A DNA stretch of 29,098 bases, taken from a virus. Each line of letters starts with the position of its first letter. Positions within the stretch are counted from its first letter, which is position 1. The notes under the pieces are model-generated. The model did not search any database and was not told the DNA's origin. It saw only the letters and a list, made by a program, of their open reading frames with translations. A program made the position numbers and the translations under genes. Positions 27,064-29,098 of the stretch are shown here, piece after piece. The stretch is taken from positions 1-29,098 of IMG/VR virus record IMGVR_UViG_3300005838_000047; one strand, given 5' to 3'.

Positions 27064-27966
27064 CTACGCCCTCCGCAAGAAGCTGGGGATCGTGAAGGCG
27101 TCCTCGACGACCGTGACGCGGGCACGCCACTCGCCGGTCGACAGCTGCCGGCCTTCGACGCGCTTGGCGAAGAGCCTGGCGCCTGCCGCCCAGCTGTCGA
27201 TCCGCCACATGCCCTTGGGGGCGCGGGGCCGCTTCTCTCCGACCAGCGGCTTGCCGGCGTCCAGCCAGGCCTGGTGCTTGATGGCGGAGGTTGCCTCGAA
27301 GGCGCGCTCGATCTCTTCGACCTGGGCCCAGGCGTCGTCGTCCTGCGCGGCCTGCTCGATCTCACACTGGCTCATGAAGGGGCAGAAGACGCAGCTGGAT
27401 TTTTTGACCGCGTGCGGCCAGACGGCGGCGATGATCTGCTCGCAGGTCTCGCGGGTCCAGCCCAGGTCGACCAGGGGGTGCTTGAACTGATGCTTCGATT
27501 TGGGATCCGCCTGGAAGCGGGCCCGCTGTGTCTCGTTGGCTTCGATGCCGACCAGCCAGGTGATGTCGTCGCCGGCGTACTCTTTAGTCGCCCACTTCTG
27601 CATGGGCTCGCCCTTGAACTTCAGGGAGCAGACGTGCGGCCCGCCAGGCATCACAGGAACGGTGCCGTTGCCCAGCAACCACTGCTGGATCGTCATGGGG
27701 TTGCCGTCCTTGTCCATCTTGCGCACGCGGGAGAAGGGGATGCTGGCGATGCCGCACTGGCGGATCGCGGTGTCGACGTTGGTGTAGGTGTGTGCGAACT
27801 CGGCGCCGGGGTCGGCGAAGACGACGTGATCGATCTGGCCGATCGCGTCGCGGATCTCGTTGGCGCTCGTGCCAGTCAGGTTGGCGACGGTCGCCGTATA
27901 CAGGTGAGCTGCCAGGATTGCGGTGCTATCTACGCCGCCACCGAATGCTAGGATCGTCTTGGTCAT
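27064..27966 (-). CDS. PP-loop ATPase, PAPS-reductase / adenine nucleotide alpha hydrolase type (300 aa)
   Basis: 300 aa; ATG 27966 is chosen since CGGAG stands before it and an earlier ATG would lie inside the promoter. The signature FGGGVDST (8-15) is the SGGxDS PP-loop that binds ATP and adenylates a substrate. HVVFADPGAEFAHTY (47-61) follows, as in phosphoadenosine-phosphosulfate reductase-like proteins. Cys 113 (HVCSLKFK) and the cluster CVFCPFMSQC (192-201) could hold an iron-sulfur or zinc site. It is the first gene of the leftward operon, so expressed early. Such phage enzymes may act in sulfur or base-modification chemistry; no other modification gene is seen, so the role is open. 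Confidence 0.75.
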   Translation of the reverse strand: MTKTILAFGGGVDSTAILAAHLYTATVANLTGTSANEIRDAIGQIDHVVFADPGAEFAHTYTNVDTAIRQCGIASIPFSRVRKMDKDGNPMTIQQWLLGNGTVPVMPGGPHVCSLKFKGEPMQKWATKEYAGDDITWLVGIEANETQRARFQADPKSKHQFKHPLVDLGWTRETCEQIIAAVWPHAVKKSSCVFCPFMSQCEIEQAAQDDDAWAQVEEIERAFEATSAIKHQAWLDAGKPLVGEKRPRAPKGMWRIDSWAAGARLFAKRVEGRQLSTGEWRARVTVVEDAFTIPSFLRRA

Positions 27967-28005
27967 TTTTCTGCTCCGTTGCGTTAAATCAATCGCTCCA
28001 AGGAG

Positions 28006-28032
28006 CGTATAGATCAGTGACTGATCAGTCAA
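28006..28032 (-). promoter_or_regulatory. Leftward sigma70-like promoter for the main operon
   Basis: On the minus strand the -35 box is TTGACT (28027-28032) and the -10 box TATACG (28006-28011), with a 15-bp spacer that is slightly short. The 14-bp palindrome TGACTGATCAGTCA covers the -35/spacer, so a bound dimer would block it. The first gene, the PP-loop ATPase, starts 40 nt downstream with its own CGGAG site. Confidence 0.6.
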
Positions 28033-28056
28033 CCCCCTGTCACTGATAAAAAGCGC

Positions 28057-28086
28057 TTGCGCCTGTCACTGATATGTGACCATAAT
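28057..28086 (+). promoter_or_regulatory. Rightward sigma70-like promoter
   Basis: -35 TTGCGC (28057-28062) and -10 CATAAT (28081-28086) are separated by 18 bp. One copy of CCTGTCACTGATA (28062-28074) sits in the spacer. The ATG at 28128 lies 41 nt after the -10 box and has AGGAG (28116-28120) before it. Confidence 0.6.
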
Positions 28087-28127
28087 TCACCTCGACCAGC
28101 GACAGAACCCTTTAACAGGAGCACAAC

Positions 28128-28583
28128 ATGACCAAGATCAACCTGGACAGCCTGACTACCAAAGAGATGACAGACGCGCAGTACAAGACCTGGACCCACA
28201 CCTGGATCAAAGAGTATGCGGCCAGCATGGTCGCCGAGTGCGGCATGACGAAAAAAGACGCCAAGTTCCACGCCGAGCACGCCTTCGAGAATTTCATTGG
28301 CCAGGCCGGCGACGAGGCCCGCGACGAGCGCATCATGCACGCCCGCAGCTATGAGGGAGACGCCGCATTTGAAGCCCGCCAGGAAATGACCGCCGCCGAG
28401 GAAGACGAAGCCCAGGCGCAACACGCCATCGACGAAGACGCCGCCCTTCAGGCCCAGCGCGAGGCCGCGTACCCCGCCACCGCAGAGGACGTCATGCCCC
28501 GCCAACGCGCAGATAGGTATATTGAAGACGATTACGATCCCGAGCAGGTTCCTGACGGCGGCTGGGACGAGATCCCCTGGTAG
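28128..28583 (+). CDS. Acidic hypothetical protein, first rightward gene (151 aa)
   Basis: 151 aa from ATG 28128 behind CAGGAGCACAAC. The N-terminal half is helical and neutral (YKTWTHTWIKEYAASMVAECG, KKDAKFHAEHAFENFIG, in parts). From about residue 75 it becomes Asp/Glu/Ala/Gln-rich, and it ends ERYIEDDYD-like with GGWDEIPW. No family is recognised. It is the first gene after the rightward promoter, so early expression is likely. Very acidic small early phage proteins can mimic DNA, but nothing here shows that. Confidence 0.6.
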   Translation: MTKINLDSLTTKEMTDAQYKTWTHTWIKEYAASMVAECGMTKKDAKFHAEHAFENFIGQAGDEARDERIMHARSYEGDAAFEARQEMTAAEEDEAQAQHAIDEDAALQAQREAAYPATAEDVMPRQRADRYIEDDYDPEQVPDGGWDEIPW

Positions 28584-28591
28584 AGATCGAA

Positions 28592-28605
28592 ACGCCCTCG
28601 GGCGT
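28592..28605 (+). terminator. Short hairpin between the first two rightward genes
   Basis: ACGCCC and GGGCGT pair around TC just after the stop of the 151-aa gene (6-bp stem; five pairs with a CTCG loop is the likelier form). There is no T-run after it, so it would attenuate weakly or serve as an mRNA end rather than terminate. Confidence 0.3.
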
Positions 28606-28653
28606 CTGCCGGTGGATCCGGTACTGATGAGATCAACAACCAAGGAGAGCACC

Positions 28654-28956
28654 ATGACTTTGCAGCAAGACATCGACACCGCCGCCCATTGGCTGCGCAG
28701 CGACACGCCCGAGGAGGCGTTCGACTTCGAGATGGTCGCGGAGACCGAGATGTATACCGCCAAGCTGGTCGCACGGCGCGGCCAGGCGCGGGTCACTTTT
28801 CTTGTCATCGACAACCAGACGCTCCGCGTCTCGACGTCGCCGGCCCTCTCCAACATCCTGCTCGACTGGCCGCAGATGCCGCGCCTGGCCATGCAGGCTG
28901 CCAAGTGGCGCCGCCGCTACAACGAGCGGGTCAATGGGGAGTACGTCTCATCATGA
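28654..28956 (+). CDS. Small hypothetical protein (100 aa)
   Basis: 100 aa; ATG 28654 is chosen because AAGGAGAGCACC precedes it, whereas the in-frame ATG 28522 lies within the previous gene. The product has a helical start (LQQDIDTAAHWLRSDTPEE), a beta section (FEMVAETEMYTAKLVARRG, RVTFLVIDNQTLRVS) and a helical, basic end (LAMQAAKWRRRYNERVNG). No family is recognised. It overlaps the next gene as ATGA. Confidence 0.55.
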   Translation: MTLQQDIDTAAHWLRSDTPEEAFDFEMVAETEMYTAKLVARRGQARVTFLVIDNQTLRVSTSPALSNILLDWPQMPRLAMQAAKWRRRYNERVNGEYVSS

Positions 28957-29098
28957 CCTCGCATGCAGGCTTCACCGCCCCCGCCGACGCCGCCCAGTTC
29001 ATCCTGGGCGGCAACGCCATCTTCACCATGACCTCGGCCCGCACGGGCGCCCACTTCACCTACAAGGTGCAGCTGCCGCAAAACGCCGACAGTCCCTC
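28953..29098 (+). CDS. Conserved-type phage protein (partial, 3' end beyond window)
   Basis: ATG 28953 overlaps the previous stop as ATGA and the frame stays open to the right edge (48 codons). The part FILGGNAIFTMTSARTG followed by HFTYKVQLP resembles the start of a widespread small phage protein family whose members begin F..GGNA.FT..S..TG..FTYKV. That family is of unknown function. The rest of the protein is outside the window. Confidence 0.55.
   Translation, partial: MTSHAGFTAPADAAQFILGGNAIFTMTSARTGAHFTYKVQLPQNADSP

Follow-up and report, generated by a model that had tools for sequence, protein, structure and literature searches.

Genome context of the strand hinge

The DNA analysed here, referred to as the window at its full length, is a single virus record of 29,098 bp (IMGVR_UViG_3300005838_000047). 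It encodes portal, coat and terminase proteins of the P22 type together with a PrimPol/AAA replication protein, with profile matches for the portal (PF16510, E-value 8e-183) and coat (PF11651, E-value 5e-30) of the virion module, and belongs to an uncultured P22-like podophage. The closest portal relatives in IMG/VR share 50–56% identity, while those found in species genomes (50–55%) lie mostly on Phenylobacterium/Caulobacteraceae and other alphaproteobacterial contigs, which suggests that the host of this phage is probably alphaproteobacterial.

Up to position 27966 the major genes lie on the minus strand; from 28128 to the contig end there are three frames, all on the plus strand, and an intergenic hinge of 161 bp (27967–28127) separates the two groups. 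At this hinge the AT skew changes sign and the GC content is 48% (vs. 63%). The first leftward gene (27064–27966, minus strand) codes for a PAPS-reductase-like PP-loop protein of 300 aa (phrog_424, E-value 1.9e-17). The first rightward gene (28128–28583, plus strand) codes for a predicted helical protein of 151 aa, its coding nature being indicated by codon-position GC and a ribosome-binding site; both genes possess good ribosome-binding sites and coding periodicity. It is followed by a 100-aa gene (28654–28956, plus strand), also with a good ribosome-binding site, and by a third gene (28953–29096, plus strand) which is cut by the contig end and shares 43% identity over 42 aa with the N-terminus of a protein of the P22-like phage MW202483. 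All three rightward frames have GC-rich third codon positions.

A preliminary description of this locus, made from the sequence alone, held that its regulator is not in the window, and this agrees with a search in which no helix-turn-helix (HTH) or other regulator was recognised among the window proteins scanned, neither flanking gene being a regulator. The 151-aa protein has no database relatives and no HTH family match, and a low-confidence single-sequence model of it is nearly all helical, so that its candidacy as the regulator is not supported. Neither flank is a recognisable HTH gene, and the right arm is covered for only 971 bp before the contig ends. No genuine relative of the primase, the PAPS reductase or the 151-aa protein came up in searches of IMG/VR, where the sole match was an unrelated phage with just a short acidic stretch in common. 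In a class-level sample of genomes, one carries a relative of the primase next to an RHH-type gene and an integrase, which is not a P22-like context.

Repeat sites at the hinge

The 13-mer CCTGTCACTGATA is present at the hinge in two exact copies (28036–28048 and 28062–28074), and a scan of the whole contig allowing at most one mismatch located it solely at 28036 and 28062. The sequence ATCAGTGAC (28013–28021) and the palindrome TGACTGATCAGTCA are likewise present where they were first described, and the 9-mer GTCACTGAT occurs three times in the whole 29-kb contig, in all cases at the hinge. The stretch at 28013–28021 had been regarded as a partial inverse of the 13-mer; it is rather a third site in register, which gives sites that are 26 bp apart twice.

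Each of the three sites possesses the gapped dyad TCA-N-TGA, with centres spaced by exactly 26 bp in both intervals. Site 1 (AGTCACTGATC, 28012–28022, minus strand) carries TCA-G-TGA centred at 28017 and matches the other two at 9 of 11 positions. Sites 2 and 3 are both TGTCACTGATA on the plus strand (28038–28048, dyad centre 28043, and 28064–28074, dyad centre 28069), each lying inside one of the two copies of the 13-mer. In 5000 dinucleotide shuffles of 27967–28127, a direct repeat of 13 bp never arose, nor did any 9-mer in three copies when both strands were counted; likewise, 3+1+3 gapped dyads of identical sequence never recurred three times at equal spacing in 5000 shuffles. Stretches of the same length (161 bp) with triple 9-mers also exist elsewhere in the window, near 5.5, 16.4, and 17.1 kb, all of them within genes.

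The perfect palindrome TGACTGATCAGTCA (28018–28031) overlaps site 1 and the proposed leftward −35 element, and neither this 14-mer nor its core CTGATCAG recurs elsewhere in the contig. A second, unrelated perfect palindrome (CGCTCCAAGGAGCG, 27994–28007) overlaps the proposed leftward −10 element and the predicted leftward transcript start, and may possibly form a 5′ hairpin or serve as a site for another regulator. Between the −10 and −35 hexamers proposed for the leftward promoter there are also two GATC motifs (28012–28015 and 28023–28026), 11 bp apart; methylation-sensitive control through these is conceivable, provided that a Dam enzyme is present in the host or the phage.

Putative divergent promoters

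Two opposite sigma70-like promoters had been proposed at the hinge. The hexamers exist, namely TTGACT-N15-TATACG leftward (28006–28032, minus strand; 9/12 matches, with a short spacer) and TTGCGC-N18-CATAAT rightward (28057–28086, plus strand; 8/12), but their scores are at chance level, as a best score of at least 9 arose in ~38% of shuffles and of at least 8 in ~92%, and a promoter scan at the usual settings (at least 9/12 hexamer match, spacer 16–18) found none. The two are separated by 24 bp rather than the 25 bp first given. As the hexamer scores are no better than chance, the case for these weak, putative promoters comes from the divergent genes, their ribosome-binding sites and the A+T-rich DNA. 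Their positions are plausible, since one dyad lies inside each spacer (site 1 in the leftward, site 3 in the rightward, with site 2 between both −35 elements) and the predicted starts (~27999 leftward and ~28093 rightward) lead into the ribosome-binding sites.

Hinges of related phages

The collections searched yielded no close relative; records very near to that of the window may have been left out of these searches. By tblastn, the genes for the primase, the PAPS reductase and the 151-aa protein were found in none of the fetched portal relatives, which lack the sites also. One IMG/VR relative, G009 (IMGVR_UViG_3300020202_000053, 38.8 kb), with a portal of 50% identity, matches the window in overall layout, having a leftward arm of PAPS reductase (a different one), terminase and structural genes, a rightward early arm, and repeated dyads at the hinge. 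Here a CI-like protein with HTH and S24 domains diverges from a small Cro/YdaS-like protein, and the 83-bp hinge between them bears its own operator-like repeats, consisting of two copies of TTGCG-N5-CGCAA with additional half-sites. One 7-mer is found in this hinge three times, which was matched in 10 of 5000 shuffles. Unlike the dyads of the window, these repeats are flanked by CI-like and Cro-like genes, and the sequences of the two sets are unrelated. A CI-like/Cro-like protein pair is also found at the hinge of another relative (L067), and repressor, Cro or regulator genes are annotated at the hinge in the named P22-like phages PAE2, PBR31, VvAW1, and EPV1. The hinge in this lineage is therefore often an early or immunity control region with phage-specific operators.

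Nothing comparable to the three sites was detected in the hinges of these relatives or across fetched loci totalling 3.2 Mb. When viral contigs were scanned for paired TGTCACTGATA, the only matches were a tandem duplication of 22 bp, carried by an unrelated phage, and a region that is repetitive and coding-like, while a scan for three TCANTGA motifs at 26-bp phase gave only an unrelated 26-bp tandem repeat. A survey of triple 9-mers in the divergent gaps of relatives was too crude to be of use, as antisense ORFs confused the gene calls. The sites thus had no match in any relative, nor one in other viral contigs at a position that would be meaningful; their absence from distant relatives says little, since operators evolve with their regulator.

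Repeats of other kinds were seen in two relatives. Upstream of the rightward genes of phage MW202483 (~28200–28640), GTAAAC/GTTTAC palindromic repeats form a dense lattice, possibly of operators or iterons, and the rightward arm also encodes a DnaA-domain-like protein. EBPR podovirus 1, whose hinge runs across the record ends, has ~12 copies of GGCGGATCGCTC, mostly at 60-bp intervals, beside a Cro gene.

A probable bidirectional operator

The region 27967–28127 is probably a bidirectional early control region, in which a CI/Cro-like and likely phage-encoded protein would bind as a dimer to the three dyads and repress both promoters. The assignment to a regulator of the CI/Cro type draws on the related hinge of the same layout, with its divergent cI-like/cro-like pair and its own different repeats. 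Such a dimer would recognise gapped dyads of 11–13 bp (TGTCAcTGATA, half-site approximately TRTCA) phased exactly 26 bp apart. Site 1 lies between the −35 and −10 elements of the leftward promoter and site 3 between those of the rightward one, so that protein bound there would keep RNA polymerase off both, while the middle site may provide for cooperative or graded occupancy. Leftward transcription would then supply the PAPS-reductase/primase/terminase/structural arm and rightward transcription the 151-aa/100-aa arm, with the gene of the regulator presumably lying in the part of the genome that the contig lacks, estimated from relatives of 33–40 kb at perhaps 5–10 kb on the right. We hold with moderate confidence that the function of the hinge sites is most likely that of an on/off control point for both divergent gene sets.

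The preliminary description had suggested a genetic switch in which one protein controls both arms. A shared operator is the best-supported reading of the statistically strong repeats, the single dyad in each promoter spacer, the strand hinge and the cI/cro pairs with repeats in relatives, but the gene of the regulator was not found; a switch in the sense of two alternative states would follow only by analogy.

Like the lambda-type OR, in which three operators lie between divergent PRM and PR, the array has three related and imperfectly dyad-symmetric sites of near-constant spacing which lie between the putative divergent promoters, the outer ones overlapping them. It differs in the length of the sites (11–13 bp vs. 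17 bp) and in their exact spacing of 26 bp, and also in that neither flank is a cI or cro homolog and no repressor was recognised in the contig. It may work like a lambda-type operator triplet, yet it cannot be classed as one, as the flanking cI/cro genes that are a defining feature are absent. The repeated 13-bp site in a region of early control also recalls the operators/stoperators of mycobacteriophage L5, which number more than 20, are asymmetric and are scattered through the genome (PMC9283540). The array is not a system of this type, since the window has three dyad-like sites at one locus only.

Among phage switches the array is ordinary in kind and its general interest is modest. It does add a clearly defined, testable operator array for a P22-like lineage of which the nearest relatives in genome collections are mostly alphaproteobacterial prophages, and the comparison with relatives suggests that the hinge stays in place as its operators and regulators are exchanged. 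More tentatively, and on balance doubtful, the cI/cro pair may have become uncoupled from the hinge in this phage, with an unlinked regulator controlling both arms through the 26-bp-phased array of three dyads and the PAPS-reductase-like gene placed directly under it.

Alternative functions of the sites

The sites could instead bind a host regulator, or a phage regulator not of the CI type (e.g., TetR-like), which would adjust the 151-aa and PAPS-reductase genes to the physiology of the host instead of governing a choice between lysis and lysogeny. This we consider unlikely. The first leftward gene is of an auxiliary-metabolism type and not a regulator, and the immunity region may lie elsewhere, as relatives keep cI/cro directly at the hinge and the phage of the window does not. 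The core TATCAGTGACA also agrees at 10 of 11 positions with TATCAGTGATA, the core of the tet operator, but this is a lead only, having been chosen after the fact among many known operators; furthermore, no TetR-like gene was recognised in the window.

Slightly less probable again is a replication origin of the phage with the sites as its iterons, where an initiator would bind the direct repeats and open the A+T-rich stretch of the hinge. Two perfect 13-bp direct repeats in such DNA, a primase-polymerase/AAA helicase gene in the leftward arm and the precedent of P22-like MW202483, with its repeat lattice and DnaA-domain-like protein, are consistent with an origin. However, there are just three sites, one of which is inverted, each outer site falls inside a promoter-like spacer, no adjacent initiator gene was recognised, and relatives with the same hinge have cI/cro there. 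Chance or neutral duplication without function would fit the lack of demonstrable conservation, but is very improbable given the absence of the repeat and of the equally spaced dyads from all shuffles and the intergenic placement on the hinge.

Depletion of GANTC

It is worth mentioning that GANTC is nearly absent from the whole window, with three copies (890, 1562, and 18502) where ~97 are expected from base composition and 35 from a maximal-order Markov model, while the control words GANTG and CANTG occur at normal frequency. This scarcity suggests avoidance of CcrM-type methylation or of HinfI-type restriction, and a similar depletion is seen in some of the portal relatives (L054, L074, L161, L176, L185, and L186).
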